Both the position numbers and the translations under genes were made by a program. This document shows positions 1 to 19,237 of a stretch of DNA of 64,000 bases, in pieces. Under the pieces are notes generated by a model. It saw nothing but the letters and a program-made list of their open reading frames with translations. It did not search any database and was not told the DNA's origin. Origin of the DNA: an uncultured Clostridia bacterium (lineage in GTDB: Bacteria > Bacillota > Clostridia > Oscillospirales > CAG-272); NCBI GenBank assembly GCA_946407735.1, contig CAMJPL010000013.1:1-64000 (forward strand), written 5' to 3'. How positions within the stretch are numbered: position 1 is the stretch's first letter; each line of letters starts with the position of its first letter.

Positions 1-93
1 TTCGACGCGGATAGCTTCTCGGTGTATGCGATTGTCGGGACGGAGCTCTATACGGAGGGACTTTACCTGGAAGCAGCGACACATATGTTGTGA
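1..93 (+). pseudogene. 3' end of upstream adhesin reading frame, cut by a frameshift
   Basis: The frame starting at base 1 reads FDADSFSVYAIVGTELYTE and then runs into a TGA at 91-93. This stretch is a familiar spacer in clostridial VWA/Cna_B surface proteins. The protein clearly continues in another frame: from about base 57 frame 3 reads TLPGSSDTYVVTVTVP and goes on into the next entry. One extra G in the GGG run at 57-59 would join them. This is therefore the leading part of the same adhesin gene, whose start lies left of the window. Confidence 0.6.
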
Positions 94-2240: not shown

Positions 2241-3783
2241 TGAACCAGGTGCTGGCATTACTTATAAAGATGCAACAAAGTCAGGAAAAACTGTTACCAC
2301 TGAAGGCGATCCTAAAACACTACCGTTTAATACAGTTGATCCAATGGGGCTTTCCTCTGATACGATCAGCATTGAGAAAGTTTGGGAAAATGAGCTTGAT
2401 GGACGTAACGCTGGTAATAATCCGATAACATTTACAGTCAAAGCTGATAATGACGTGTTTGGAACAGTTAGTCTCGGCCCGGACACTTGGAAAGTAGATA
2501 ATTACAATATATCTGCCGGCCTAATGAAAACCATAGGTGGACAAGTAGTGTACGAACATGGACATGACTTTACGATAGTAGAGCCTGACAATCTTGCATA
2601 TTACTGGGATTTTAAAGCAGATATTTATCATCCAATGGTAATTGATAATGAGCTTGTAATGCTTTTGAAAGTAGATACAGCGGCTGAATCAGACTATACC
2701 ATCGATGGCAAGTATTATAAGCGCTCGACACATGGTGCGACATTGAAGGCAACAAATGAAAGACGAAGTTATCTAAATCTTTCTAAAGAAGTAGTTGATC
2801 AGAAGGGTGATTCATATAACACGGATCAGGCATTTACTTTTACAGCCAGTATAACAGAATCCCGAAACGAGGATGTTTGGTTTGCTGTCTATGATTATAA
2901 TTTGCCGGCTCCGGCACCAGGACAACCTGATACTAGAGCAATCAAAGATGGAACGCTCGTGACGCGAAATGATGGAGAAGCTATTCATTATCAGGATAGT
3001 GATGGTTTCTATAGCGTTCCTAGTGGAACTGAAATAACTATCACATTGAAGAAGGGATGGAACATCCGTTTCATTAACTTGCACACAGGATCTTCGTATA
3101 CTATTTCAGAAAGTTCATCAGATCCTGTGGGATTTGGTTTCAAAGAAGCTGTTGCTACGGCTACAAACGGTGGAACGACAGGAACAGTAAGTGACAGAAC
3201 AACAACCGGTAGTATTGATAAGTCAAATACGGATTACACAGTCGCGTATACTAACCAGGCAATTACTCAGAATGTCTCGATCTGGAAAACAGATATGGCT
3301 CATAACGCGCTCAGCGGCGCCGCGTTTGACCTTTATACCTCCGCAAACTATGATGACGCGGCCGGAAAACCGAAGGACGGAGCAGTTCCTGTTGTTCAAG
3401 GGACAACAGGTGCGAATGGCATACTCACGCTAGGTGATCTCGCGGTTGGAGATTATCGTTTGGTTGAAACCCATGCACCAGCAGGATATAATCACGCAGA
3501 ATCGGCGATAGAAATTACCGTATTCGAAAACAATGTAACCGCGATGCAAGGTTCAATGCTTTCGGAAGTTGCCAGAAATGTTGAAGGAAACCGATATCGT
3601 CAGTATTGGGTCACCGGACAGGATGAAAACACCTGGCAGATTCGTGTTTGGAACAACCCCGGCGTAGCCCTCCCCTCCACAGGCGGCTACGGCAGCTATA
3701 TCCACTACGCCGTCGGAACGCTCCTTCTCACCTTCGCCGCCTTCGTCTACCTGCGTCGGCGGAGACACGGCGAGATCGTGTGA
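2179..3783 (+). CDS. Cna_B/SpaA-type LPXTG adhesin, C-terminal fragment
   Basis: This is the C-terminal part of the same adhesin. Coding in this frame really starts near 2213 (NYTYTLKTNEPGAG); the ATG at 2179 lies before the frameshift and is not a true start. It has beta-sandwich stalk modules and then a SpaA/Cna_B domain at about residues 370-455 (WKTDMAHNALSGAAFDLYT, ending ETHAPAGYNHA). The sorting signal is LPSTG at 498-502, followed by a hydrophobic segment and an RRRRHGE tail, so a class-type sortase should link it to peptidoglycan; no sortase gene is in the window. GC rises sharply near 3300: the SpaA module and anchor are GC-rich like the rest of the chromosome, while the stalk is AT-rich. 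That suggests a mosaic gene. Confidence 0.85.
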   Translation: MKKGRRLPGQAPNYTYTLKTNEPGAGITYKDATKSGKTVTTEGDPKTLPFNTVDPMGLSSDTISIEKVWENELDGRNAGNNPITFTVKADNDVFGTVSLGPDTWKVDNYNISAGLMKTIGGQVVYEHGHDFTIVEPDNLAYYWDFKADIYHPMVIDNELVMLLKVDTAAESDYTIDGKYYKRSTHGATLKATNERRSYLNLSKEVVDQKGDSYNTDQAFTFTASITESRNEDVWFAVYDYNLPAPAPGQPDTRAIKDGTLVTRNDGEAIHYQDSDGFYSVPSGTEITITLKKGWNIRFINLHTGSSYTISESSSDPVGFGFKEAVATATNGGTTGTVSDRTTTGSIDKSNTDYTVAYTNQAITQNVSIWKTDMAHNALSGAAFDLYTSANYDDAAGKPKDGAVPVVQGTTGANGILTLGDLAVGDYRLVETHAPAGYNHAESAIEITVFENNVTAMQGSMLSEVARNVEGNRYRQYWVTGQDENTWQIRVWNNPGVALPSTGGYGSYIHYAVGTLLLTFAAFVYLRRRRHGEIV

Positions 3784-3871: not shown

Positions 3872-6800
3872 TCACAGTTTTACGTTTGTCATGAACGCGT
3901 GTATCGCACGGGCGACCTCAGCCCGCGTCGCGTCGTCTGTCGGACGGATATTGCCGTCGTCATCGCAGGCTAAGATGCCGGTGACATTGGCCCAGCCCAC
4001 CGATTCCGCCGCGTATCCGGATATTTCATCCGAATCCCCGGCGTCAGCCCGAGCGGAGTATATCGGATATCCTTTATACCTTGCGTAGCGGCAGAGTATC
4101 GCCGAGAGCTGCTCGCGCGTGACAGGATCGGAAGGACCGAAGCTGCCGTCGCCGTAGCCGAGCACGATGCCGTTTTCCGCGGCCCATCCGACTCCCGCCG
4201 AATACCATTCGCCAGGTGCAACGTCGTCGAACTTTCCGCTCTCCGAGGCATGAGGCTCTCCTTCGAGCCTGTAAAGTATTGTCACGATCATTCCGCGCGT
4301 TAGATCGGCGGACGGCGCGAACTCGGTATCCGAAACTCCGACCATTATGCCGTTTTCAAACACGTACTTCACGTCCTGATAGAAAGGATGGCTCGGTTTC
4401 ACATCCGTGAAGGGAAGCTCGCTTTCCGATGCCGGGGAAGCATATACCGGCTCATCGCCGCCGGACGGATCGGCAGGAGTCTGCGGGATAACCGGTATTA
4501 CCGGTATCACCGGAGGTATTGCCATCACCGGCCCGAGCGGATTATTGACCGGTAGCGTCTGAGATACCGTGTCGTAATACTCGACGCCGTCGATCACAAC
4601 CGTCGCCGTCCATACGGCCCGAGAAGGAGCGCCTATAATGTCGGATAGGATCTCGTTTTTCACGACGGCGTTGAATACCCTTACATGTTTTCCGTCATTC
4701 CGGCATGTCTGAGTCGCCGTCGCCGATGATCTGTCGGCAGACCATCTGAATACCGGACGTCCCCACGCGTGTCCGGACGGAGGAAGTATCTTCTCATAGG
4801 TGTCTTTGTAAGTGCTGTCTCTGAACGTCACCGACGCTTCGTATACTATCCTTCCTTCCTTTTCGCAGGATGCCGCCGTTGTATCTGACGTTACCGTCAC
4901 TCTGTCGTCGGAATCGTCGATCACGATATCGCCGTCCGAGCCTTCATCCGCCTTGAACGTCACGGTCACATTTCCGTTCTCATTCCAGTCGAATACAGGC
5001 TCGCCGTAGGTATATCCCGTCGGCGGGAGCACGATCTCCTTTGTCTGCCCCTCGAAAAGACTGTTTTCGAAGGAGGCCGAGAAGTGAGCCCTGCCTTCTT
5101 CAGTCGGCTTTGCCGGCTCATCTACGGTATATACGCTCTTGGCGGTTTCCTCAAGTGAATGCGATCCGTCATGAACGCATATCACCTTCGCCGTCACCTC
5201 GCTGTTGTCGTCCGACCATGTATATGACGGAGCCCCCCATGCGTGACCGACGGGATCGATCGGGACTGTCTTTTCCTGCGCTGTGAAGGCGGGATTCTTA
5301 AACGAAGCCGTGTATTTAAGCTCGCCTTCTTCAAGGCATGACGGAGCCGTGACCGTGTCAGCCGAGACTTCGGCGGTCTCTTCTTCAAAGTGGGTCTTGT
5401 TCAGGCTGCATGTCCGCTTCGCCGTGACTGTACTGTTGTCATCTGACCATGTATATTCCGGATCGTTCCATGCGTTTTCGGGATGGGCGACGGTGATATA
5501 GGTTCCCTGAGCCGCATTGCCCTCGCTGTCGATGACCCATATCACGTGCCGTCCCCCGCCCTTGATGTAAATCGTACTGACGCCGTCAAGGAGTATGTAA
5601 TTCCCGGCGGAAGGCGTTTCGTCTTCCGGCGTAACAGCCGCCGAATATACGGCTGAATATATGTTATTCTTTGGGTCGCTTGCCGCCATGCTGAAGCTTC
5701 CGCCCGAGATCATACCGGGATCAAGTTCAGCGGTAAGGCAGAATATGCCGTCAGTGCAGTCGAATTTTTGATCCTTTATAAACCCGTCTGATATTTTGAT
5801 CTCAGACGCCGGGACGGACACCTCGGTTTCGGCTCTGTTTCCGGCGTCATCCGTCACCTCGACCAGATAGCTGCCGCCGAGCGGGACAGGGAAGAGACCG
5901 GTATACATCCGGCCTTTTACCGGGATCGCATATCCGTTCACGCTGAGCGATGTTATTCCCGAGTCGTCGGAAGCCGTGATGCCGATCGCCCCGGCGGATC
6001 CGTCGTACGAAGCCGACAGCTGAGGTTCTGTCACGTCAATGTTTCTGATCACCTTAACGGCTCTCGACCATGTTCCGTCATCCCTGTCGACGCGGATGAG
6101 ATAGAATCCGTTTCCGACGGTTCTCCACATGCCTTTCTCTTCGGCGAGCGCGCTGTCGGAAAATCTTCCGCCGTCAAAGGCGTAGGAGTTTATCGTTTCG
6201 TCGGGATTTAGCGCGTAACCGCTCTTTATCCACGGTACGGCTCCGAGAGGCGACGTGAGATCGACGATTCTTCCGTCATCGCCGACGAATGTCACGTCAT
6301 TCCGCGTGAATCCCGGAGCGTCTGATACTGCGTCCGAGCTGATCACGTCGTTGAACCAGTCGACATATCCGGTCGATCCGAGAGACATCTCGGAGGTATT
6401 TCCGGCAAGGTCATATGCTCTTACCGTATATGTTCCGTTTTCGGTGAAGGTGTAATCGAAATGCCACAGCCCCTCATCCTCCCTGACAAGAGAGGGAACG
6501 GTAGTTTCGCTGAGCGGCAGGCCGTTGAAATAGACGCTCCCTATCCCCGACTCATCGACGATATAACAGGTCATCGTTATCGGTTCGCCGATGAGCAGAG
6601 AAGCGGTATCGGGCTCGCTGCGGTTCCACAGGATCTGCGGAGAATACGCGTCGAAGTCGGTCAGGGGATCGCTGCTGTATTCGGCTGTATATCGGTCGAG
6701 CCTTGTCCCCTTTGCCGCTGTCACCGTGACAGTATGCTTCTTTCCGGCGGAGTTTTTGAATCTTATCGCAGCCGGAGATGAAGTGAATGTCTGCGCCGTG

Positions 6801-9800
6801 CCGAATTCGGATGATTCTACGGTTATCGTACCCATGAAGAAGAAGGTGATCCTATCGGCGACGGTATCGAAGGTAAGATAAGCTCCGTCCTGATTTGCCA
6901 GTGACAGGTCATGGTTCATCGGGACCTCGCCCGGATCTCCGCCGGTCCATCCGATATCGGCGCCTTTCTCGAGGAACACCCATCCGGGGTTTTTCGAAGA
7001 AGCCGCGTACAGATCGGTCTTTTTTCCGTTCGGATCGAAGAATGTGAACGATGCGTCGTCTCTGTAGATATTCACTCCGTCCGCCATCGAACCTATCGAA
7101 TAGGCGACAGCAGAGATGGAGTTTGTCGACATATCCTTTATCTGGAGGATGCCGGCAGGAGTTTTGCCCTCATCGAGCATTCTCCCGGCCAATGCGTTCG
7201 GAGCCGCCACTATGACCTGACGCGCCGGATCGTAGTAGCAGACGCCCATCCTCGGCTCCCATCCGTCCGTTCCGTCGCTAATCTCGTTTATCATTATATC
7301 CGGCTTCAGGCTCGTCGTCTCGAACGTCACGGGAAGATTCATCGTCGTCCCGAGCGCGGCGGATATATGTGAGGGAACGGTGAAAATCGTCTCATGCTTG
7401 ATTATTTTTTCAGCCTGATTGTTTATAGCGACATACTCGTCATGATCCGATGTGTAGACGCCGAAGATGATATCCGGCGTATCTCTGTCGGAGTATATCT
7501 CGGCCCTGATATGCAGTCCGCTCATTTCATCGGTGCTGACAAAGCATGATACCGGGACGTTCAGCGTGCCGGTCACGCTGCGGTAATACCCGGTTTTAAG
7601 CTCTGTGCCGCCTTCGCTGTCTTTCAGCAAATATACACCGTTTCTGAGATTCTCATCGACGCCGCGCTTCAGGAGCGGCATCTGTGTGCTGGTGTTGAGT
7701 CTGCTGCCGGTGATGTCGACAGGCTTGTATATCGGCTGCCCGTTGATATCTTTTTCTCCGGTGTCATAGCTGAACTGTATATATACCTCTCTTACGTCGG
7801 CAGTTCCGTTGTTCGCGACTGTGGCGCTGAGATCGAGCTGCGCGGCGCCGCCGGATATGCCGGACAGCTTAAGATCGAAGGTTCCGAAGCTGAGCTCGGG
7901 ACGGAATTCGACGATGAACAGATCTTCCGCTGTTTCACTGAACGAATCCTTGCCGAAATATGTCGGATCCTCCGTCACTTCGAGACAGAAGCTCGATCCG
8001 GCTGGGAGATTTTCGGTAAGCTCGGGGCTGCGGAAGGTCAGTCTTACCTCCGATCCAGACGGAACGGAGCTGGTGAGCGACCATTTTGCCAGATCAATGC
8101 ATTTGTCGTCTGTTCTGACATAAAGCCGTACACCCGCCGGCTCGGCGTCTGACGCTCTTATAGCCGACGTTCCGGTATTGGTGAAGCTGACTTCGCCTAT
8201 TATCCTGTCGCCCTGAGTGAAACGGTGATCGGAGAGGCTGAGACGTACCTGACCGACAGCCTGGTCTCCGGCTCCGAAGGCGATGGCGTAGAATCCGACC
8301 GAAGCCTTGCCGCTGGGTATGACCGATTCGAAGTCGTCTATACCGCCGCCCATGGCAAAGGTATGGTCGGCAAGCTGCACCATGCTCCCACGGGTGAGGA
8401 TGATGAGCTGACTGTCATATGTGCCGTCGTCGTTTTCGATCAGACGCGTCCCCATCTGAAGATCGGAGAAGGTGAATTTGTCCATAGAGCCTGTATGCCC
8501 GCCTTCGGTCGTCAGTTTTCCGAGATAGGCAAGCTCCGCGTCCTCACCGCTCATTCCGTATGCCGCGCGGTCTTCGTATATCTGCAGGTTTCTCATGGCG
8601 AGCAGAGTCGGGCTGCCCCATCCTCCGATACTATTGTCCCACCATGCGATATAGATGGCGTTGCTGAGGCAGTCGGCGACTGGAGCGGTATAGACGACCG
8701 CCATGTTGGTCCCGTCGGAGCCGATGGAAGCGTCGGTGCCGGCTGTATCGCTGAACAGAGGGATGATCGAAGCCGCCGGGGTCCCGCCGAGGATCGATAT
8801 TATATCGCTTTCCTTTATAAGATATGTGTTGCCGCCCATCTCGAACAGGGCAGAGGTCCGGCTTCCGCTTTTATCTATATCCGCCGTCACAAAGCTGAGA
8901 TTCGAGTAATACGGATCCGCGAGCGGCGAATTCAGCGCTCCGCCGCTGTAAAGACCGTCGGTGAGCTTCGAGGCTGTGAGATTGTCCTCTCCGCAGCTGT
9001 CAAAGTCGACAGCTGTCTGGAGCAGCCTTGCCGGGCCGAAGCCTCCGGACCCGAGCGTTCGCATATACAGACGCCGTATCGTTCCGCGCTCGGTTTCCGG
9101 GCCGATGCCGTCGAGCCCGACCGTGACCGGGACGTCGCCGGATACATCAAAGTAGGCCGTCTGCGCGGTATTATAGAATATGACTGCTGTTCCGTTTATA
9201 ACAGCGCTTTCGATATTCTCGATGGATTCGCCCGGGATCGAAACGCTCGCTCCCGAAGACGACATGAGCCTCGTTCCCGCGCCGTACAGATCGTTCAGCT
9301 TCGACTGTGTCGCCCAGAAGAATACCGCGTTCGCGAATTTCGCGTCTGTCGCCGAAATATTGTCAAGATCATCGGCTCCGAGTCCGGGATTTTTCGCGAG
9401 GATCCATGCCTTCAGCAGCTCATTGGCATTCTTTCCGTCGCCGTAGGAGGCCGCCCATACGGTCCCGTCTGAGGCGCAGTTCGGAAGATACCGGAAATCC
9501 GCGCTGCCGCTTTCAAGCGTCTTTGAAGCCGGGGAAACCGAAGTGCCCGCCGGAGAATCAGGAGCGATTACTGCGGTACGCACGGCAAATGTTGTCCCGT
9601 CTGCGTCATCATAGCTTACCCAGCTTACCGTTATGCCGTTTTCATCGCTGAAGGCGTCATAATCGAGATCGGTAAGCCCGTCGCCGTCAAGCAGAAGATA
9701 GGGATCCGCGGCTGCCTCGTCAAACGGGTGTACTAGCCCGGTATCCTTTGAGAGATCACCCGTCATGACGATACGGCTGAGTACAAGCTGAGGCGCGCCG

Positions 9801-12800
9801 TTTATCATCAGCGGATATACTATATAGTTTTCTCCGCGCGCCTGAACGAGCTTGTATGAATAGCCGTTGACGAGGCCGTCGACCAGCTTTCTCGCTTCGC
9901 CGGAGGTGTTGTATCCCGACAGCTCGAAATCAGCCGTGCCTGTCGGAGTGATGGCTCTGAGAGCCATACCGCGGCTCGCTGTATCTGATGCCGCAGCGTT
10001 TTCCGGACGGTGTATATTCTGGGAATAGCTTATGTCCTCGGGAGCCGTGACGTGAACAAGGCTCTGCTTCTCGGCTCTGAACCATACATCGGGATTCATG
10101 CTTGAGACGTACAGCGATCTTGCCGAACGGAGATTCTCGCTTATGAACTCGACGCGGTCGAGCTTCGCGCCTGCGTCAGCCGTAACGGTTATGGTGCTGC
10201 CGGGAGAGACGGTCATGACGGCTGGAGAGGATTTGAAACTCTTGCTCAAACCGTCGGCAGCGGACGTTATCGTCACTTTGCCTTTGAAGTACAGCTCCAT
10301 CTTGCCTGTCTGCGCCGTGAAGCTGACCGAGGCTCCGGTCGTTCTCGCGACGCTCAGATCGCCGTCCATCGGGATCTCGCCCTTGAATTTGCCACCGTAC
10401 CACCACGCGGACGCCGAAACATTGCGCGAGAAATACCATCCCTGATTTATAGCCGGTTTGTCCGACGTATCGGTGAGCGTCCCGTCGGCGTTTCTGAATA
10501 CGCATCCGGTATTGGTGTTCGAGAGATTGAAGCCTGTCGGCGGCAGAGGCTCTGAGGAAAGGGACTTTCCGTCGGCGGCGGTATATGTTGTCTTCTCCCA
10601 GATGGTATGATTCCCGTTTGCCGCCGTGGCGGTTATATTCCAGTCGAAATACCCGCCCGTTCCGTGCTGGGAGCCTTCTACGCCGATGGCAATGGCATCC
10701 ATCGAGTAGTTGAAGAACAGCAGCGAGACGTTGAAGCCGACCGCCAGCGCCCATTCGAAGCCAGAGATATAGAATCCTTCGTAGCTGTCGGTTTCCTCGA
10801 GATATCCTCCCATCGTCATCGAGATAGAAACGCTCGTCTTGACGAACAGCTCGAATTTCGCGAGCTCGATGCCGACTCCGGCTCCTGCCTCGAGACTGAG
10901 TCCGGGAGTGATGGTAAGACCGTCGAAAACGACCTTGCTCGTCGCTCCGATGACGGGACGAAGCTCCGAAGCCGCGATGGTATTGCCTGAAATCGGGGTC
11001 AGCCTGATATAGACGATCCTGTTGTATTCCTCAAACAATACCTCCTTCTGACCGCCGTCGCCGGACAGAAGTCCAGATGTAAGGGCTTCGCCGGAGCATG
11101 CTATACTGTCGAACACCTCCATATACACTTTTCCGTCAAGCGTAAGGTGGAAGCCTCTCGCCGTTTCTGCGCCGGAAGGCTTGCCTGATTCCGGGTCGAC
11201 GGGCTTATCGCGCATATCGAGCGCGAAGACAGCTTTGCTGCCGGAGCTCAGCCCGCCTAGGCTGCCCTGAACGAACTGAGTGATCTCGTCGCCTTCTTTT
11301 GCGTTCCTGAGCACCGAGAGAGATACCTTGACCTCGACTTCGATGCCGAACTTCACATATACATATACGATAGGTACAGGGGTGAACCTGTGCTGGACGG
11401 TGAATTCCACGCCGAGAGACGCCGCGAGACCGGCGCTCTTGAAGTAATGGCAGTTGTCGATCGGGTTGTATTCGAACATGATTGAGATCTGAACGGTAAA
11501 TGAAACCTGGACCCCTCTCGAAGTGCCGTTGCCGTTCTTCGCGTTTTTAAGGCTGTCGTCCTCAAAGGCGCCGTCCATGAATTTCTTCATGGAGCCCTTC
11601 TTCGGGCTTGTCAGAGCTTTGCAGAATTCCTTCAGGGTAGACATTCCGCCGTTGGCCTCACTGAAGCCTTCCTTGAAGTTTTCGCCCGCGGTTTTCTCGG
11701 TAGGAGGATCGACCGAGTCCGTTCTTTTGAATATTGACTTTTCCTCCTCCTTGTCGTCGTTCCAGTCTTTTTTATATAATAATTCCTTGGTACGCTCGGT
11801 CTTTACCTTTCCGTCCTTGTCGGTAGTTTCGACGATTGTTATCCGCTGTCTTGCGCCCGCGGCATCCGGATCTGCGTCGGTGGTTATGGTGGTCTTTGTC
11901 TTTACCCCATTTTCCTCCTTTACGATCTCCTTGATGTCGTTTCCGTCGCCGTCCTTGCGTGTGGTGACGATACTGCCGTCAAACTGCTTCTCCGTAGTCT
12001 CGGAGCCCGAATATGATGTGTCCTCATACTGATATACCGGGATCCCGATGGCGAAGCCGACCTCGTAGCCGTCCATGATTACGGTGACGTAATCCCCGAG
12101 CTCAAGCTCGAGGGAGGGAAGCTCGATCCCGAGATCGGGAGAAAACTCTGAAAATCCGGTGTCGTCCCCGGGACCGGCGCCGCTTGTCTGTCCGGCGTCT
12201 CCTCCGGTCATATTCATAAGCCCGTCGGGGGAAGGAGTCGATCCGACGGTCCCGACGCTTATGCTCTCCGGCTTTATGTCATCGAGAGATGTTATATCGG
12301 GCGACGCTGCGCGAAGCATAGATCTCTGGGAAGGAGACTTCGCCTGCTCCTGTATCCCGATGGCGAAAGTAGTCCTTCCCGAGAACGAGCCGAGGCTGGC
12401 GTTAACATTGTCGCGGCCTTTATCGGAGTAATTATACGTTCCGTCGGAATTCACGGAAGGTGTTTCGCCGGCGATCGAGACTGATCCTCCGGTTATGTTG
12501 TTGCTGTCAACGATAGGAGACGGATTGTCATACGGAACGAGAAGCTGTCCGGTGTATTCGGGAGTCCATGTATAGGTCGTGACGTTCTCCGAGTCGATGA
12601 CCTTTGTCTTGTCTTCGCTGAGAACACCGACTGTCTCGGAGACATAGCTCTTTTCCCCGACGTCGCCGCCGAGCGGTATGTCGACGAATGTGGGAGCGTT
12701 GGCTGCGGAGCCGTACATCGGGTGACCGTTTGCATTGTTGGACTTGATATATCTGTAGCTGCGCTGCTCATCGGTTAGCTCTGACGCTGCCGAGGAATCG

Positions 12801-15800
12801 GTAACGGCCGACAGGAAGGCGGGAAGAAGCTGAGCACGGTCGCTCTCGCTCGCGCCAATCGGAACGGCGTAAGCCCTCGGTCGGATCGTAAGAAATACCT
12901 TCAGGAAATTCTGGTGGATCAGACCGTCTTTGTCCTTGTAAGCCCTGAAGAACGAATCCGGGTAGTCGCCTTCGACCAGAGCGACGAATTCGTCTATAGT
13001 ATTGCCCTCGGTGTCCCGGTCGAGGATGAATTTTCCGCTGCTGTCAAGATAGCCGCCGATGATCCCGTCTCCGTTCTTGTCATAATAGACTTCGACATGA
13101 TCGATGAACACCTCCATCGGGCTTACCGAGTCAAGGTATTTGGAATCATAGAATGTGAAATGGATTCTTGCGGCTGTAAGATCCGCCTCCGTTATGTATA
13201 TCGTCTCGTTTCCGGCGTACGCGCGGCCGTTGTAGAGTATCACGTCCTCGGCGTCCTGACGGAAATTGACAGCCTGTACGTTTTTCTTTGTGCCGGACGT
13301 GAAGAATACGCCGTTTTTACCCGTGAATTCACCATCGGACGGATACCACACGGTGCTTGTGTCGGAATAGAAGTATCTGCCGCCGACCTGTGTCGGTACA
13401 TTGCCTGTGAGATTGAGCGAAGCGGTCTCGACGGACGGTCCGCGGGAGATAAAGGAGCTGAAAACCTCAGCGTATCTTCCGGAATCTATGGTAGTCCCGT
13501 CGTCGAGCCTCGGAGTGGAAGGGGCTATGTCGATCTCAAAGATCTGAGCGCGTTCGAAGATGATATTGAGCTGATAAGTATCTGTAAGGCAGCTTTCCTT
13601 CATGCCGTCCCAGAGCATCTCGATATACCAGATCCTGCTGTCAGAGCTGTTTCTGGTTACCTTTCCCACCTTCTCGCCGTACTGGTTCGTCATGAAAAGA
13701 CCGTTGTCGGGGATAGTGAATCCGGTGATGTCCGACGAGTCGATCATGATCTTCGATCCGACGTAAAGATTTCCGAGGGAGGATACTCCGCCCGCTCCCT
13801 CAACTATGGATATTTTCGGTATCAGGCTGTTGTACAGCGCGGTATTGCCCGCCTGGATCGGAACATAATTTCCGGCTTCATCAATATCGTTCGCGGTGTA
13901 GAAGACGAGATTTATACCGCGCGCGTTGTCTCCGGCGTAATTCGCCGGATAATGCGTCGTCTCGAACTCGCGCCGCGCGAAGGCGTAGGACAGGATATCG
14001 ATCGAGGTGTGCGTGCCGTTGCCGCAGGTCTCGTTCCATGATCCGTTCTCATCAGCCCACTGCTCGCGCATCGCGAATTCTATGTCGAGAGAGGCGACCT
14101 TGCCCCATATGAGAGGTGCTTCTCTTATATCGTCTATACCGATCCATGAATCCGAGCCGCGGTCTGCGCCGAATTTACTGCCGCTGACGTATTTACCGCC
14201 GGCGTCATAATCACCCTGGCTGTACCAGTAATACCGCCGGTCATTTACTCCGTAGACCTCATACTTCGTCTCCATCGAATCCAGAGTATAGCTGTTCACC
14301 GACGACCAGAACTGGATATAGGGACGGAGCCAGTAGTCCTTCGTGAATATATTCGTCCCTTTTCTTCCTACTTCCGAAAGATGCGTCGCGAAAACATATC
14401 CTGAATACAGTGTTCCCGCGTTCGCAATGCTGAGCTGAGCCTTGCTGTCGAAGTTCGCCGATATACGGGTATAATTCGGGATGGTTTCGGTCTGACCGGC
14501 TGAGTTTGTATATGAATAGTCCTCAAGGTTTTTGACAACGATCTCGCCGCCGTTGTTGTTTGAGGCGGTCTTCATCATATAAGAGGTGAGCTTTCCTCCG
14601 TAGCCGACGGTGGAGGCGCTGTCTGAGTATAATCCTGATCCGAGCGCGACCTCCCAGTCCCTCCAGTATTTTGATTTGTCATAATTTTCTATGTTCTCCC
14701 GTTTGAAGGAGAAATTGGGATTCACGACATGAGAGCGAAGCATAACGGTTCCGCCTTTGGCGGCTCCGCTCCCGGTCACGGTATCAGCGGTGAGCTTCTC
14801 GCCGCCGTCCATCATCGAGACGGCAAGAACGGAGTCCGATGAGCCGGATGTTATAAGAGGCTCATCCGATATGCCGACGAAAGAAGAAATGTCTTCTCCG
14901 TCCGATGAGGTAAGGACCGCGGCGAGGTTCTGTCCGGAACCGTCTGCCTGTATCTCAGGCGAGCTTCCTGTCAGGATTATATCTATGCGCTCATGAGACA
15001 GCGTACAGAGATTATCCGTGCCGCCGCCCCGAAGATTGGAAAGAACGATGCCGAAGGATTTTTCCACCGTATCGGATACGGGTATAAGCTCGATAGGTAT
15101 CTCGATCTCGTCAATGGATCCTGCGAAAGCGAGATCGCCGGATTTATAGGCGTAATCTGTACCTGCGGCGGCAGTACCGTCGACTGTCTCGTAATGGACG
15201 GTCACATTGTAGCTTTTGCCTCCGGTACGGACGATCCTGACCTTCGCCGCGCCGTCCTCACGGCTGACAAGCAGTATTGGATCGGCGAAACCGATCTCCG
15301 AACGCTCTCCCGCGTCGTTGTCGGAAACCATCAGGGTCAGGGTATTGCATACGTCGCTGAGCTCGCCGCCCTCACAGCCGTTTATCGTGAACATTCCGAG
15401 CTCGGGAAGCTCGGGGATAAGATCGTCTATGGCGGTTACGCGGATATATTTTACCGTCTCGCCGTCGGCGAAGGTGAGATCGAACTCCATAAGCCCGTAT
15501 TCGTCACCGAACACGAGCCTTGAATATCCGTTTTCCTCCACGGAAAGAACATCGGCGGCTATATCAGCCGGTCCGTCCGGCTGATACTCTTCACCCATTA
15601 GTGAAACCGAGCAGTAAACCGTCCCGTCCGTCTCGTAAATGCAGCGGAAATCTCTTCCGGTCGGGGCATCGCTTTCGAAGTCCCAGATGTCGCTCCAGAC
15701 CACCGTAAGCGTGCTCATGCCGGCCTCAGTGATGTCCGACCATATCCCGCCGGCTTTTGTCTGCCAGCGGAAGGAATCGGCGGCAATGGGCTCGGACAGC

Positions 15801-16381
15801 GAGAGCACAAGCTCGTCGCCGGGGAGGATATCGTCTGTTGCCTCCGGAGCGCATACGGCGGCGGACGACGCAGTCATATCACGCCGCGCGGCAGGGACGC
15901 CTAGAGGCTGATTTGAGGCTATCGGGGAAGCGTCCTGATATTCGATCATCAGATCGTCACGCCCCGAGGCCGCGTAATCGTATATCTTATTCACCCCGTC
16001 GGCGTCGGTCGTAATCGCCGGAGCGTAGACTATCTTCGCCGTAACGCGTCCGACGGTGCCGCCGAGACGGTAAACGGGGATCTCAATGCTCTGCGGGATC
16101 TGCTCTCCGTTTTCGGTCAGTGCTCCCGGCTCGGATATATCGGCCTGATGGCTGCCGAAGGCGAACGTACCATACGGATAGGCCTCATTCCAGTCTTCGT
16201 CGGGCGAAATGACGCCGTCAGCGGAGACGGGAAGCTGTGGTATATCTCCTTGGGACGCCGCCGACTCAGGCAGCAGCGGCTCAAGCCCGTCCGCGATAAC
16301 ATCCGCGGGCAGGAATACGGCAGAGATGACAACGCTCAGAACAAGCGATGTCATACGGATAAGAACGGAACGGTTATTCAT
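3872..16381 (-). CDS. Giant SLH-anchored multidomain surface protein (4169 aa)
   Basis: A giant exported surface protein. The start is the ATG at 16381: it is preceded by GGAGG seven bases upstream and opens a signal peptide (about residues 1-30, MNNRSVLIRMTSLVLSVVIS then ADVIA). The same frame stays open another 89 codons upstream without export features. By rough residue position it has two Calx-beta-like modules (260-360, 364-457; GTAAAGTDYA), a long amphipathic beta region (1625-1950), an internal duplicated module (about 1977-2089 and 3132-3240), CARDB-like segments (2708-2757, 2830-2875), Ig-like segments (3245-3340, 3455-3525), and four repeats starting HAWG or similar (3631-3947). A Pro-rich linker (IPPVIPVIPVIP) and three SLH domains (3990-4169) close the protein. 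SLH domains bind secondary cell-wall polysaccharide. The function is unknown, possibly adhesion or substrate capture. It is the second gene after the small two-TM gene at 16435, 53 bases apart, and divergent from an ECF sigma operon. Confidence 0.92.
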   Translation of the reverse strand: MNNRSVLIRMTSLVLSVVISAVFLPADVIADGLEPLLPESAASQGDIPQLPVSADGVISPDEDWNEAYPYGTFAFGSHQADISEPGALTENGEQIPQSIEIPVYRLGGTVGRVTAKIVYAPAITTDADGVNKIYDYAASGRDDLMIEYQDASPIASNQPLGVPAARRDMTASSAAVCAPEATDDILPGDELVLSLSEPIAADSFRWQTKAGGIWSDITEAGMSTLTVVWSDIWDFESDAPTGRDFRCIYETDGTVYCSVSLMGEEYQPDGPADIAADVLSVEENGYSRLVFGDEYGLMEFDLTFADGETVKYIRVTAIDDLIPELPELGMFTINGCEGGELSDVCNTLTLMVSDNDAGERSEIGFADPILLVSREDGAAKVRIVRTGGKSYNVTVHYETVDGTAAAGTDYAYKSGDLAFAGSIDEIEIPIELIPVSDTVEKSFGIVLSNLRGGGTDNLCTLSHERIDIILTGSSPEIQADGSGQNLAAVLTSSDGEDISSFVGISDEPLITSGSSDSVLAVSMMDGGEKLTADTVTGSGAAKGGTVMLRSHVVNPNFSFKRENIENYDKSKYWRDWEVALGSGLYSDSASTVGYGGKLTSYMMKTASNNNGGEIVVKNLEDYSYTNSAGQTETIPNYTRISANFDSKAQLSIANAGTLYSGYVFATHLSEVGRKGTNIFTKDYWLRPYIQFWSSVNSYTLDSMETKYEVYGVNDRRYYWYSQGDYDAGGKYVSGSKFGADRGSDSWIGIDDIREAPLIWGKVASLDIEFAMREQWADENGSWNETCGNGTHTSIDILSYAFARREFETTHYPANYAGDNARGINLVFYTANDIDEAGNYVPIQAGNTALYNSLIPKISIVEGAGGVSSLGNLYVGSKIMIDSSDITGFTIPDNGLFMTNQYGEKVGKVTRNSSDSRIWYIEMLWDGMKESCLTDTYQLNIIFERAQIFEIDIAPSTPRLDDGTTIDSGRYAEVFSSFISRGPSVETASLNLTGNVPTQVGGRYFYSDTSTVWYPSDGEFTGKNGVFFTSGTKKNVQAVNFRQDAEDVILYNGRAYAGNETIYITEADLTAARIHFTFYDSKYLDSVSPMEVFIDHVEVYYDKNGDGIIGGYLDSSGKFILDRDTEGNTIDEFVALVEGDYPDSFFRAYKDKDGLIHQNFLKVFLTIRPRAYAVPIGASESDRAQLLPAFLSAVTDSSAASELTDEQRSYRYIKSNNANGHPMYGSAANAPTFVDIPLGGDVGEKSYVSETVGVLSEDKTKVIDSENVTTYTWTPEYTGQLLVPYDNPSPIVDSNNITGGSVSIAGETPSVNSDGTYNYSDKGRDNVNASLGSFSGRTTFAIGIQEQAKSPSQRSMLRAASPDITSLDDIKPESISVGTVGSTPSPDGLMNMTGGDAGQTSGAGPGDDTGFSEFSPDLGIELPSLELELGDYVTVIMDGYEVGFAIGIPVYQYEDTSYSGSETTEKQFDGSIVTTRKDGDGNDIKEIVKEENGVKTKTTITTDADPDAAGARQRITIVETTDKDGKVKTERTKELLYKKDWNDDKEEEKSIFKRTDSVDPPTEKTAGENFKEGFSEANGGMSTLKEFCKALTSPKKGSMKKFMDGAFEDDSLKNAKNGNGTSRGVQVSFTVQISIMFEYNPIDNCHYFKSAGLAASLGVEFTVQHRFTPVPIVYVYVKFGIEVEVKVSLSVLRNAKEGDEITQFVQGSLGGLSSGSKAVFALDMRDKPVDPESGKPSGAETARGFHLTLDGKVYMEVFDSIACSGEALTSGLLSGDGGQKEVLFEEYNRIVYIRLTPISGNTIAASELRPVIGATSKVVFDGLTITPGLSLEAGAGVGIELAKFELFVKTSVSISMTMGGYLEETDSYEGFYISGFEWALAVGFNVSLLFFNYSMDAIAIGVEGSQHGTGGYFDWNITATAANGNHTIWEKTTYTAADGKSLSSEPLPPTGFNLSNTNTGCVFRNADGTLTDTSDKPAINQGWYFSRNVSASAWWYGGKFKGEIPMDGDLSVARTTGASVSFTAQTGKMELYFKGKVTITSAADGLSKSFKSSPAVMTVSPGSTITVTADAGAKLDRVEFISENLRSARSLYVSSMNPDVWFRAEKQSLVHVTAPEDISYSQNIHRPENAAASDTASRGMALRAITPTGTADFELSGYNTSGEARKLVDGLVNGYSYKLVQARGENYIVYPLMINGAPQLVLSRIVMTGDLSKDTGLVHPFDEAAADPYLLLDGDGLTDLDYDAFSDENGITVSWVSYDDADGTTFAVRTAVIAPDSPAGTSVSPASKTLESGSADFRYLPNCASDGTVWAASYGDGKNANELLKAWILAKNPGLGADDLDNISATDAKFANAVFFWATQSKLNDLYGAGTRLMSSSGASVSIPGESIENIESAVINGTAVIFYNTAQTAYFDVSGDVPVTVGLDGIGPETERGTIRRLYMRTLGSGGFGPARLLQTAVDFDSCGEDNLTASKLTDGLYSGGALNSPLADPYYSNLSFVTADIDKSGSRTSALFEMGGNTYLIKESDIISILGGTPAASIIPLFSDTAGTDASIGSDGTNMAVVYTAPVADCLSNAIYIAWWDNSIGGWGSPTLLAMRNLQIYEDRAAYGMSGEDAELAYLGKLTTEGGHTGSMDKFTFSDLQMGTRLIENDDGTYDSQLIILTRGSMVQLADHTFAMGGGIDDFESVIPSGKASVGFYAIAFGAGDQAVGQVRLSLSDHRFTQGDRIIGEVSFTNTGTSAIRASDAEPAGVRLYVRTDDKCIDLAKWSLTSSVPSGSEVRLTFRSPELTENLPAGSSFCLEVTEDPTYFGKDSFSETAEDLFIVEFRPELSFGTFDLKLSGISGGAAQLDLSATVANNGTADVREVYIQFSYDTGEKDINGQPIYKPVDITGSRLNTSTQMPLLKRGVDENLRNGVYLLKDSEGGTELKTGYYRSVTGTLNVPVSCFVSTDEMSGLHIRAEIYSDRDTPDIIFGVYTSDHDEYVAINNQAEKIIKHETIFTVPSHISAALGTTMNLPVTFETTSLKPDIMINEISDGTDGWEPRMGVCYYDPARQVIVAAPNALAGRMLDEGKTPAGILQIKDMSTNSISAVAYSIGSMADGVNIYRDDASFTFFDPNGKKTDLYAASSKNPGWVFLEKGADIGWTGGDPGEVPMNHDLSLANQDGAYLTFDTVADRITFFFMGTITVESSEFGTAQTFTSSPAAIRFKNSAGKKHTVTVTAAKGTRLDRYTAEYSSDPLTDFDAYSPQILWNRSEPDTASLLIGEPITMTCYIVDESGIGSVYFNGLPLSETTVPSLVREDEGLWHFDYTFTENGTYTVRAYDLAGNTSEMSLGSTGYVDWFNDVISSDAVSDAPGFTRNDVTFVGDDGRIVDLTSPLGAVPWIKSGYALNPDETINSYAFDGGRFSDSALAEEKGMWRTVGNGFYLIRVDRDDGTWSRAVKVIRNIDVTEPQLSASYDGSAGAIGITASDDSGITSLSVNGYAIPVKGRMYTGLFPVPLGGSYLVEVTDDAGNRAETEVSVPASEIKISDGFIKDQKFDCTDGIFCLTAELDPGMISGGSFSMAASDPKNNIYSAVYSAAVTPEDETPSAGNYILLDGVSTIYIKGGGRHVIWVIDSEGNAAQGTYITVAHPENAWNDPEYTWSDDNSTVTAKRTCSLNKTHFEEETAEVSADTVTAPSCLEEGELKYTASFKNPAFTAQEKTVPIDPVGHAWGAPSYTWSDDNSEVTAKVICVHDGSHSLEETAKSVYTVDEPAKPTEEGRAHFSASFENSLFEGQTKEIVLPPTGYTYGEPVFDWNENGNVTVTFKADEGSDGDIVIDDSDDRVTVTSDTTAASCEKEGRIVYEASVTFRDSTYKDTYEKILPPSGHAWGRPVFRWSADRSSATATQTCRNDGKHVRVFNAVVKNEILSDIIGAPSRAVWTATVVIDGVEYYDTVSQTLPVNNPLGPVMAIPPVIPVIPVIPQTPADPSGGDEPVYASPASESELPFTDVKPSHPFYQDVKYVFENGIMVGVSDTEFAPSADLTRGMIVTILYRLEGEPHASESGKFDDVAPGEWYSAGVGWAAENGIVLGYGDGSFGPSDPVTREQLSAILCRYARYKGYPIYSARADAGDSDEISGYAAESVGWANVTGILACDDDGNIRPTDDATRAEVARAIHAFMTNVKL
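4540..5490 (-). repeat. Four tandem HAWG-type repeats inside the giant SLH protein
   Basis: Four consecutive modules of about 75-80 codons begin NAWNDPEYTWSDDN, HAWGAPSYTWSDDN, YTYGEPVFDWNENG and HAWGRPVFRWSADR. Each contains a Cys-bearing strand and ends in a P-x-G or LPxxx turn. The first two are most alike, suggesting recent duplication; the third lacks the central Cys-x-H part. Confidence 0.8.
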
Positions 16382-16434: not shown

Positions 16435-16746
16435 TTATTTGTTTTTCCTGTCTTTTCCCCGAAGCTTTATCGTCAGCACCGCTGTCGCCGTACCGAGCGC
16501 GAAAGCGGCGACCGCGACGACGACGTAGCTTCCCGCTTCGGCTGACAGGAGGAACGAGCCGTAAACCGACGCCGATTCGACAGAGGCGCCGAGATCGGAA
16601 TACATCGATATAACGGAAACTATCACAGACAGAAGAGCTGCCGAGCATACCGACATAACGCCTGCTTTGCGGCGCTCTCTTTTTCTGATCAAGGCGCTTT
16701 TCCTTCGCATGATCTCGCTTATGGCTTCATTCTTGTTGTAAATCAT
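16435..16746 (-). CDS. Small two-TM membrane protein, paralogue of the sigma-operon protein
   Basis: A 103-residue protein of no known family. A basic N-terminal segment of about 30 residues (EIMRRKSALIRKRERRK) should be cytoplasmic. Two hydrophobic segments (about 30-48 and 73-93) enclose a short Ser-rich outside loop. It aligns over its length with the 113-residue product at 17492: both have EIMRR near the N terminus, the pattern S-x-YxSxLLS before TM2, F-x-LG inside TM2 and a basic tail. It is the first gene of the minus-strand operon that continues into the giant SLH protein. By position it may be a regulator (anti-sigma-like or sensor) or an accessory of the surface protein. No zinc-finger anti-sigma motif is present. 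Confidence 0.75.
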   Translation of the reverse strand: MIYNKNEAISEIMRRKSALIRKRERRKAGVMSVCSAALLSVIVSVISMYSDLGASVESASVYGSFLLSAEAGSYVVVAVAAFALGTATAVLTIKLRGKDRKNK

Positions 16747-16950
16747 GGCTGCTTTCCCGGGATCGTGTTCTTTTTTATATATTAGTACCGCGAAAAACGG
16801 ATTTTACTCACCTTTTTTGAAATAAATTATCGGCAATGTTTACACGAGGGCAATAAATTGGTCTTGAAGAGTCATAAAGAAACAAATATAATATTGATAT
16901 ACAGCTTATTCATATTATTATTGCATCCGCTTTTTCAGCTCAACGGTAAA

Positions 16951-17502
16951 ATGAACGAGACTGATGAAGAGATATACCGCCGCTATCTTGAAAACAACAC
17001 CGAGGACGATTTCCGTATCCTGTTTGACCGGCACAGCGGAAATCTGACTCTTTTTATAAAGGGGTTCGTAGGTGATATCGGCGACGCGGAGGAGATCATG
17101 ATCGACGCCTTCGCCGAGGCGGCAGCCGGGACATCGGCCTATCGATCAAAAAGCAGCTTCAAGACCTGGCTTTTCTCTATCGGGAAGCATCTGGCCCTAA
17201 AGCACCTCAGAAGGGCAGAAACCGCCCGCAGACACGAGCCGGATATCGACGGGGAAGCGGCCGAATCCCCAGAGATGACGCTGATTACCGAAGAGCGCAG
17301 CCGAAGATTATATCAGGCCCTCGACAGTATATCCCCGGAATACCGTCAGGTCCTGTATCTTATATTTTTCGAGGAAATGTCCGTCGAAGACGCAGCTCGC
17401 GTGATGGGCAGGAGCAGAAAGCAGATATACAATCTTGTCGAGCGGGGAAAGAAAGCGCTGAAAAAACGGCTTGAAGCAATGGGGATAAACGATGCGCAGT
17501 AA
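16951..17502 (+). CDS. ECF-type RNA polymerase sigma factor
   Basis: A sigma-70 family factor of the ECF group, 183 residues from the ATG at 16951 (MNETDEEIYRRYLENN). The same frame is open back to 16858, but that stretch has a hydrophobic sequence unlike ECF factors, so it was left out; no strong Shine-Dalgarno decides the start. Region 2 is at about residues 15-75 (ILFDRHSGNLTLFIKGFV, then DAEEIMIDAFAEAA). Region 4 is at about 120-178 (ISPEYRQVLYLIFFEEMS, helix-turn-helix VEDAARVMGRSRKQIYN). It heads an operon with a small two-TM protein (11-base overlap), a polytopic membrane protein and a PrsW-like protease, and is divergent from the giant SLH operon. That suggests it drives one or both operons in response to an envelope signal. 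The 204-base divergent region shows no clear sigma-A promoter, which fits dependence on its own sigma. Confidence 0.9.
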   Translation: MNETDEEIYRRYLENNTEDDFRILFDRHSGNLTLFIKGFVGDIGDAEEIMIDAFAEAAAGTSAYRSKSSFKTWLFSIGKHLALKHLRRAETARRHEPDIDGEAAESPEMTLITEERSRRLYQALDSISPEYRQVLYLIFFEEMSVEDAARVMGRSRKQIYNLVERGKKALKKRLEAMGINDAQ

Positions 17503-17833
17503 AGACGATCAGTTCAACGAAATAATGAGACGCGCCGAAAACGTCAAAAAACGCGGCAGACTGAGAAAAACGCTTGCCGCCGATATAACGTCGTGCGCCG
17601 TCTGCGCAGCGCTGCTTATCGCCGCCGCGGCTTTGATACCGAGGTTGGATATCTCGTCGGCGTCTCTGTCTCAGAGCAGCTACGCCAGTCTTCTTTTGAG
17701 CCCTCCGTATCTCAGCTTTATAATTATCGCGCTGCTGTCATTTTCGCTCGGGATATGCGTGACCCTGCTTTGCCTGCATCTGAAAAAACTGAGGCAGATA
17801 GACGCGTCGGGTGAAAAGCATGACGATACTTGA
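17492..17833 (+). CDS. Small two-TM protein in ECF sigma operon (candidate anti-sigma)
   Basis: A 113-residue protein of unknown family. Its ATG at 17492 overlaps the sigma stop by 11 bases, so translation is coupled. It has a basic cytoplasmic N terminus (MRSKDDQFNEIMRRAENVKK), TM1 at about 30-49, a Ser-rich outer loop (DISSASLSQSSYASLLLS), TM2 at about 76-96 and a charged tail. It is related along its length to the product at 16435-16746. A small membrane protein immediately after an ECF sigma gene is most often its anti-sigma factor. The nearby PrsW-like protease would be the enzyme that cleaves it. No ZAS motif (HxxxCxxC) is present, so it would be an atypical anti-sigma. The role is an inference from position. 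Confidence 0.75.
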   Translation: MRSKDDQFNEIMRRAENVKKRGRLRKTLAADITSCAVCAALLIAAAALIPRLDISSASLSQSSYASLLLSPPYLSFIIIALLSFSLGICVTLLCLHLKKLRQIDASGEKHDDT

Positions 17834-18602
17834 ATTTGTCGGTCAGTATACGTATCTTGCCGCGGTCATTTTTGCGATGTTCCGTTCTGTCCGGCTGATC
17901 ACCGTAAGGCGGGACATGACTTCGGTGTTTTTCACCTTCGGAGTGGCGAGCCTTCTTTTCAGTGAATTCTACTGGATAGCGTACGAGTTTATCCGCCCGG
18001 GCACCCGCATGCCGTTCGCGGCGAATGAATTCGGAGAATGGGCTTTGATGCTGCTCATGGCTGAAACGCTGACCACCCTGATGCGCGGAAGACCCAAGCC
18101 TCCGGCAATTTATCTTGTATGTTCGGTTTTGTTCACCGCGGCGAACACGGCTCTCTGGATCGGCTGGACGGGGGAATGGCTGCAGGATATCCTGACGGGA
18201 ATAATAATGTGCTATTATCTGTACAGGGTCATCCATATGCTGTATATATCCGGAGCCTTTGCAAAATATGACTGGACCGCCGCAGGGATCGGAAGCGTCG
18301 TTCTCCTGTCGCTTCAGGCGGTCATATTCTTTGTTCCGGAGTCTTTTGTTCCGCCGCTCGATCTTACATGCTACGTTCTGGCTTTTTCGGGAGACTGTTA
18401 TTTCCTGTACAGAGCTTTCACGGCTTTCCGTAAAAAGGCGCATCCCGATATATGCGTCGCGCTTTCGTTCGCCGCTGAGATCTGGGCGGAGTTCATGCTT
18501 TATATGAGTTCGGGAGCGTTTTACGGCGCCGCCCTGATAATCTGCGCGGTATGTCTGATACTGAAGCTGCGGTCGATTTCAATGGAGGACGGAAAAACGT
18601 GA
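17820..18602 (+). CDS. Polytopic membrane protein of ECF/PrsW operon
   Basis: A 260-residue integral membrane protein with seven or eight predicted hydrophobic helices, no signal peptide and no recognised family. The ATG at 17820 has GGGTGA just upstream and overlaps the preceding gene by 14 bases; a GTG at 17811 is an alternative. Its last bases overlap the next gene (GTGA). The layout resembles the 7-TM sensing modules found on some kinases but no enzymatic domain follows. Its place between a sigma/anti-sigma pair and a PrsW-type protease suggests a sensor or scaffold. The function is not known. Confidence 0.75.
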   Translation: MTILEFVGQYTYLAAVIFAMFRSVRLITVRRDMTSVFFTFGVASLLFSEFYWIAYEFIRPGTRMPFAANEFGEWALMLLMAETLTTLMRGRPKPPAIYLVCSVLFTAANTALWIGWTGEWLQDILTGIIMCYYLYRVIHMLYISGAFAKYDWTAAGIGSVVLLSLQAVIFFVPESFVPPLDLTCYVLAFSGDCYFLYRAFTAFRKKAHPDICVALSFAAEIWAEFMLYMSSGAFYGAALIICAVCLILKLRSISMEDGKT

Positions 18603-19237
18603 TTTACGCTGAAAATATACTGCTGTGCATCGCGGTTCCGCTGCTTCTGTCGATCATTTTCATAAAGGGAGACGCGAGACTGTTTTCCGCTTCCTTTCTG
18701 ATAGGCATGTCGGTCTGCCTGATTTCCGCGTATATAAGCGGATTTCTCGATCTCGTCACCGGTATGGGTGTAAACGACACATCGGTCTTTCTCTCGCCGA
18801 TCGTTGAGGAGATCATGAAGCTGCTTCCGCTCATCTTCATAATTGTTCTCATCGAGCCCGAGGATAAGACCATGCTGATAACCACCGTCGGCATAGGAGC
18901 CGGTTTCGCCACCTTCGAGAACTGCTGCTATATACTCACCTTCGGAGTCGAAAGCTTTTCGTATGTCCTGATAAGGGGCATGGCCGTCGGCGTCATGCAT
19001 GTGGTCAGCCTGCTGATGCTGGCCATAGGTCTTATCCTCGCAAGACATTTTGACGTGATGTCGCTTCCTGCCGTGATGGGAGCGCTGTCGCTTTCCGCCA
19101 CATTCCACGGGTTGTATAACCTGCTCGTCTCGAGCCCCGGCATCTCGTCCGCTGTCGGGTACGCAATGCCTGTCGCCGCGGCGGCGATCCTTTATCTGCC
19201 TTTCAGAATGATGAGCAGATACGCGTCGGATCAATAG
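18599..19237 (+). CDS. prsW: PrsW-family intramembrane metalloprotease
   Basis: A 212-residue polytopic protein with the PrsW/CPBP-type signature: glutamate pair EE at 70-71 (PIVEEIMK), FATFEN at 103-108, His134 in a membrane helix and AxFHGLYN with His170. These would bind the catalytic zinc. In Bacillus subtilis PrsW makes the first cut in the anti-sigma factor RsiW and releases the ECF factor SigW; here the substrate would be one or both small two-TM proteins. The GTG at 18599 was chosen because GGAGG lies about ten bases upstream and its last two bases are the first two of the upstream stop; an in-frame ATG at 18551 lies inside the previous gene with no ribosome site. It is the last gene of the operon. 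Confidence 0.85.
   Translation: MIYAENILLCIAVPLLLSIIFIKGDARLFSASFLIGMSVCLISAYISGFLDLVTGMGVNDTSVFLSPIVEEIMKLLPLIFIIVLIEPEDKTMLITTVGIGAGFATFENCCYILTFGVESFSYVLIRGMAVGVMHVVSLLMLAIGLILARHFDVMSLPAVMGALSLSATFHGLYNLLVSSPGISSAVGYAMPVAAAAILYLPFRMMSRYASDQ

Follow-up and report, generated by a model that had tools for sequence, protein, structure and literature searches.

The locus analysed here raises the question of whether an ECF sigma factor, two small membrane proteins, a polytopic membrane protein and a PrsW-type protease that lie around the gene for a giant surface protein work as one regulatory system, and if so what that system controls. The genes that a first-pass annotation had placed in the window, by which is meant the whole stretch of 64,000 nucleotides from an uncultured Clostridia bacterium, were all found where it had put them; they are listed here together with two predicted promoters.

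3872 to 16381, minus strand: giant surface protein of 4169 residues with Calx-beta repeats and three C-terminal SLH domains, the cargo of the module
16435 to 16746, minus strand: small protein B, 103 residues, first gene of the putative target operon, with transmembrane (TM) helices at residues 28-46 and 75-93 and both ends predicted inside
16778 to 16812, minus strand: ECF-type promoter predicted for the B-giant operon, about 30 nt ahead of B, GGTGAGTAAAA ... GGTACTAATATA
16864 to 16892, plus strand: housekeeping-type promoter of the sigma operon, TTGAAG-17-TATAAT
16951 to 17502, plus strand: ECF sigma factor, 183 residues, with sigma-70 regions 2 and 4
17492 to 17833, plus strand: small protein A, 113 residues, paralogue of B, with TM helices at residues 32-50 and 77-95, a candidate membrane regulator of the sigma factor
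17820 to 18602, plus strand: polytopic membrane protein and candidate sensor, 260 residues from the ATG at 17820 or 263 from the GTG at 17811
18599 to 19237, plus strand: PrsW-type intramembrane protease of about 212 residues, starting at the GTG at 18599, with conserved catalytic residues

The sigma factor starts at the ATG at 16951, within a longer frame that opens at a TTG at 16858, and homologues favour the ATG for the polytopic protein and, for PrsW, the GTG at 18599 as the likely start, overlapping the polytopic stop codon. Membership of the ECF family follows from matches to PF04542 and PF08281 above their cut-offs and to TIGR02937 at 87 bits (cut-off 42.9). The protease belongs to PF13367 (61 bits, cut-off 23.5), and its residues E74, E75, K78, E111, H138 and H174 are invariant in 84 of 84 sequences. 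It scores only 27 bits against a cut-off of 225 for the Bacillus PrsW equivalog NF033739, and at about 212 residues, with no extra domain and no toxin fusion, it is not a PrsW-dependent polymorphic toxin.

Chance neighbourhood was considered and rejected because the cassette recurs, both in the same genome and in many other Clostridia. Small A, used as a query against the genome of the window, identified three paralogues, namely small B of the window and two on another contig (C1:6651 and C1:8412), and the region C1:6098-20719 is a complete second six-gene cassette, all on one strand.

C1, 6098 to 6664: sigma factor
C1, 6651 to 6992: small A
C1, 6973 to 7590: polytopic protein
C1, 7587 to 8216: PrsW
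C1, 8397 to 8750: small B
C1, 8747 to 20719: giant protein

The giants of the window (4169 residues) and of C1 (3990 residues) are homologous along most of their length, and two further PrsW genes of this genome have no cassette partners nearby. A scan of 84,980 species genomes with the cassette PrsW yielded 251 confirmed relatives, of which the best 80 loci were read; these came mostly from rumen or gut Lachnospiraceae, Butyrivibrio, Oscillospiraceae, Solobacterium and other Clostridia. Profiles identified 83 modules in these best 80 of 251 loci, with PrsW in 83 (a count that is not independent, because the loci were found via PrsW), the polytopic protein in 81, the sigma factor in 73, B in 67 and A in 63, some of the absent genes being explained by contig ends, and the gene order was the same in nearly all. 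One locus (L057, genome G065) is apparently the same contig as another (L070), both being 40759 long, and is not an independent case. A profile search with the small proteins, which does not depend on PrsW, detected pairs of them, separated by about 1.7 kb, in a further six genomes of the order; its weak matches (E > 1e-5) were mostly short partial matches within longer frames and were disregarded. The polytopic protein, used as a marker in 196 genomes of the family, matched only itself because it diverges too fast. The shared neighbourhood proposed earlier is thus borne out, the genes being kept together in the 83 modules of the best 80 of 251 loci and in the second copy in the genome.

Several loci depart from the usual arrangement. 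Tandem modules of different subtypes occur at L085 (1-7294); the second has no A and is more closely related to the window module than any other (PrsW 58%, sigma factor 50%). Tandem modules also occur at L089 (5978-12493) and L091, where the first is without A and ends in B with no surface protein. The sigma gene follows PrsW in L112, L116 and L119. At L060 (1-2709), the sigma factor and A have decayed to remnants, and B is still there with the promoter ahead of it (33 bits) and the gene for a dockerin/SLH protein. At L024 (7953-10688, minus strand), a stand-alone PrsW adjoins LPXTG-type surface proteins and a transposase in the same genome.

What the sigma factor controls was approached through the promoters. 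A conserved ECF-type promoter lies directly upstream of B, consisting of GGAG or GGAA with a T-tract, and GTATCT or GACACT; its T-tract agrees with reports on ECF promoters, in which such a tract follows the -35 element (PMC6056542). A matrix built from the ungapped motif upstream of B gave cross-validated scores above 10 bits in 55 of 63 B upstream regions, a score exceeded by 1 of 315 shuffles and, upstream of the sigma genes, by 3 of 350 scans (70 sequences by five folds), and it gave 33-44 bits at B in genomes outside training (G276, G368, G406, G435, G443 and G052). The C1 site, also outside training, scored 32.8 bits, far above all else in 20 kb. The window site is weaker than that of most modules, scoring 9.4 bits with a matrix trained without it, second best of the 64 kb and at the expected place; the window module is a divergent subtype whose nearest relative is the second module of L085. 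The -35/-10 spacing is identical at the window and C1 sites, and the distance to the B start is 22 nt in the window and 21 nt in C1. The type of -10 element tracks the sigma tree (2 changes, with 17.5 expected from shuffles), a pattern to which shared descent contributes.

Upstream of the sigma genes the best score was 6 bits with the full matrix, so that this is not an autoregulated ECF operon, and both sigma operons of the window genome have housekeeping-type promoters, that of the second cassette being a perfect TTGACA-17-TATAAT. The first-pass annotation had proposed to look for an ECF -35/-10 motif shared by the two divergent upstream regions; the motif lies on the B/giant side only, the sigma side being of housekeeping type. 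Exact matches to the pattern in the window genome numbered two only, both of them B promoters, of which only the absence of other exact matches is informative because the pattern was written from those two sites. Pattern searches allowing up to 3 mismatches, in which weaker sites could be missed, found one site in each of five held-out genomes, at B, and one site per module in four Butyrivibrio genomes. With one site per module, at B and not at the sigma gene, the target of the sigma factor appears to be the B-surface-protein operon, no other having been found; one promoter type lies upstream of this target and is specific to the sigma clade, the site in the window being weaker. The predicted promoter ahead of the B-giant operon supports the suggestion of the first-pass annotation that the giant surface protein belongs to the regulon.

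The end of the B gene is usually no more than some tens of bases from a gene for a secreted protein, which it often overlaps, and that secreted protein is often giant. Domains of adhesin type were seen in these proteins (Calx-beta, SLH, I-set, InlB repeats, collagen, GLUG, BspA leucine-rich, Big and dockerin), and no toxin domain was found in the cargo proteins scanned. Among pairs of modules with PrsW 70-79% identical, only 8 of 57 had a common surface-protein family. Judged from the sequences, the switch is conserved while the surface-protein family is exchanged among closely related modules and strains; the window giant is also homologous to the giants of L081 and L128. A dedicated giant SLH target, as first envisaged, is present in the window but is not the general rule, the cargo of related modules being LPXTG-like, membrane-anchored or secreted, and a few modules having no surface protein.

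The small proteins were described at the outset as a duplicated pair without a zinc finger, and this description stands. Homology of A and B was detected by BLASTP for the window pair (E 4e-5) and by profile-profile comparison with relatives (E 1.6e-30), and a tree of 127 A/B sequences had two clean clades with one sequence misplaced, as the outcome, read from these alignments, of an ancient duplication. Each begins with 26-30 basic residues that include an ERI..LH.R motif and lead into TM1; a loop of about 27 residues, nearly without positive charge, connects TM1 to TM2, which carries AF..G...T, and the tail is again basic. K+R averages about 8.5 ahead of TM1, at most 1.1 in the loop and 5-6 past TM2, and both ends are therefore predicted to be inside. 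Full-length A and B alike conserve the motif of the N-terminal helix, and a single-chain model of small A has one helix (residues 4-48) continuing into TM1. A and B are not class I (zinc-type) anti-sigma factors: none of the 63 A and none of the 67 B sequences has the motif Hx3Cx2C, and the N-terminal part of 26-30 residues is shorter than the cytosolic domain of class I, which measures about 50 residues or more. No Pfam family matched A, B or the polytopic protein, and PDB sequence searches with the small-protein and polytopic profiles gave nothing significant. It is plausible that A and B are anti-sigma factors cleaved by PrsW. A alone cannot be a universal inhibitor, being missing in about 12 modules and cut down to TM2 and tail in 6. 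Partial correlations of distance matrices (mirror-tree) were weak, at 0.25 for A-sigma, 0.14 for B-sigma and 0.40 for A-B, a signal insufficient to choose A or B as the partner of the sigma factor.

The polytopic protein was modelled, at a mean pLDDT of 82, as a membrane bundle made up wholly of helices, nine of them in the window protein, in which short loops join the helices and there is no sizeable cytosolic domain; Foldseek of this model against PDB gave no significant match (best E 0.02, TM-score about 0.25-0.3). No second-step protease was linked to the modules.

Taking the gene order, the homology, the promoter, the single site per module and the exchange of cargo as they stand in the sequences, we favour, with modest confidence, a self-contained sigma module with one target, and we infer for it inhibition by A and B, cleavage by PrsW, sensing by the polytopic protein and feedback by B. 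The housekeeping polymerase would transcribe the sigma-A-polytopic-PrsW operon, and membrane proteins of that operon would keep the sigma factor inactive, the short basic N-terminal helix common to A and B being the likeliest sigma-binding part. The membrane complex would then sense a signal, with the polytopic protein as candidate sensor, and PrsW would cleave A, B or both near the membrane, as PrsW makes the site-1 cut of the anti-sigma factor RsiW in B. subtilis (PMC3498285). The sigma factor so freed would fire one promoter, that of the operon of B and the surface protein. Since B is a paralogue of A and the first product of the target operon, it most likely provides negative feedback, by which synthesis of the giant protein is limited or shut off. 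It is also possible, although we would stop short of calling it probable, that the cassette is a portable one-promoter switch in which the first gene of the target operon is a paralogue of the inhibitor, so that each round of adhesin synthesis makes its own brake and the adhesin is freely exchanged between strains.

An alternative explanation could be that B, with an ancestry in common with A, is devoted to the surface protein as its partner in the membrane, for example as an export reporter, in which case control of the sigma factor by A and PrsW would stand. We consider this rather unlikely. B does adjoin the cargo gene, and in genome G086 it occurs with a secreted enzyme and no sigma factor nearby, but in five Butyrivibrio modules (L131, L092, L093, L095 and L109) no surface protein follows B and the sole matching promoter nonetheless drives B, which in L131 is followed by a terminator-like element and then a sugar transferase (PF02397). 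The same adjacency, often with overlap, could reflect an export or processing route for the giant made up of B, the polytopic protein and PrsW, with the sigma factor merely coupling expression and PrsW acting on the cargo and not on a regulator; such a PrsW-dependent route has been proposed for toxin fusions (PMC3482391), and B still precedes a secreted protein in G052, where the sigma factor has decayed, as well as in G086. However, PrsW and the polytopic protein are encoded beside the sigma gene and not beside the cargo, the cargo families and anchors are unrelated, and a polysaccharide enzyme gene follows B in Butyrivibrio and in L140, where a sugar aminotransferase precedes polysaccharide genes, all of which makes this explanation very doubtful.

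It could also be that the polytopic protein, with PrsW, is the true inhibitor of the sigma factor as well as its sensor, and that A and B are accessory, pairing together and presenting or regulating it. The polytopic protein is present in 81 of 83 modules and PrsW in all 83 (best 80 of 251 loci), although the latter count is biased by the search with PrsW. A is dispensable and, where reduced, retains TM2 and tail with the N-terminal helix gone, and the A-B correlation exceeds that of A with the sigma factor. Inhibition by the polytopic protein is nevertheless unlikely, its model having no sizeable cytosolic domain to hold the sigma factor and the N-terminal helix motif being conserved in full-length A and in B.

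The module resembles the SigW-RsiW-PrsW system of B. subtilis in having an ECF sigma factor and a PrsW-family protease whose substrate is a membrane inhibitor there and would be one here. RsiW belongs to the zinc-type anti-sigma factors, whereas here there is no zinc-type protein, two paralogous proteins with two TM helices and an extra polytopic protein are present, PrsW lies inside the operon and there is one target promoter. About 89 genes depend strictly on SigW (PMC3498285). Class II anti-sigma factors (CnrY/CnrH) are likewise membrane inhibitors with only short cytosolic helices (PMC7406223), but a sequence relation was not found and the candidates A and B have two TM helices and are paired across two operons. 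In the SigI/RsgI systems of cellulolytic clostridia, too, surface or extracellular proteins have stringent private promoters that are served by multiple alternative sigma factors (PMC6056542); these systems differ in sigma family and regulator, have regulons of several genes and lack PrsW. In LytTR systems a regulator gene is likewise followed by that of a small membrane inhibitor (PMC6193735), whereas the regulator here is an ECF sigma factor whose operon is without the target promoter motif. PrsW-dependent polymorphic toxins similarly link a PrsW peptidase to variable secreted proteins (PMC3482391), but here PrsW has a gene of its own with no toxin fusion, and the cargo domains are of adhesin type. 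A description of this cassette was not found in the literature searched, and its sigma factor may already have an ECF group number. If correct, the proposed mechanism would account for the on-off control of one very large, costly surface protein in many Clostridia of the gut and rumen, exerted by a private sigma factor through a single promoter. It would provide functional hypotheses for three widespread membrane-protein families without a Pfam match; in addition, the promoter motif predicts the target in each genome, and the small sigma/promoter pair is testable in B. subtilis.

Two other regions of the window were noted. At 90-3783 on the plus strand, two pilin-like surface proteins (one with VWA/DUF7604, the other SpaA with an LPXTG anchor) converge on the giant gene. 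At 56780-59329, also on the plus strand, an 849-residue protein has an N-terminal ECF sigma domain, the long remainder towards the C-terminus matching TPR and DUF3108-like domains weakly, and similar long sigma-bearing frames occur at C14:57243 and C77:5156 in the same genome.
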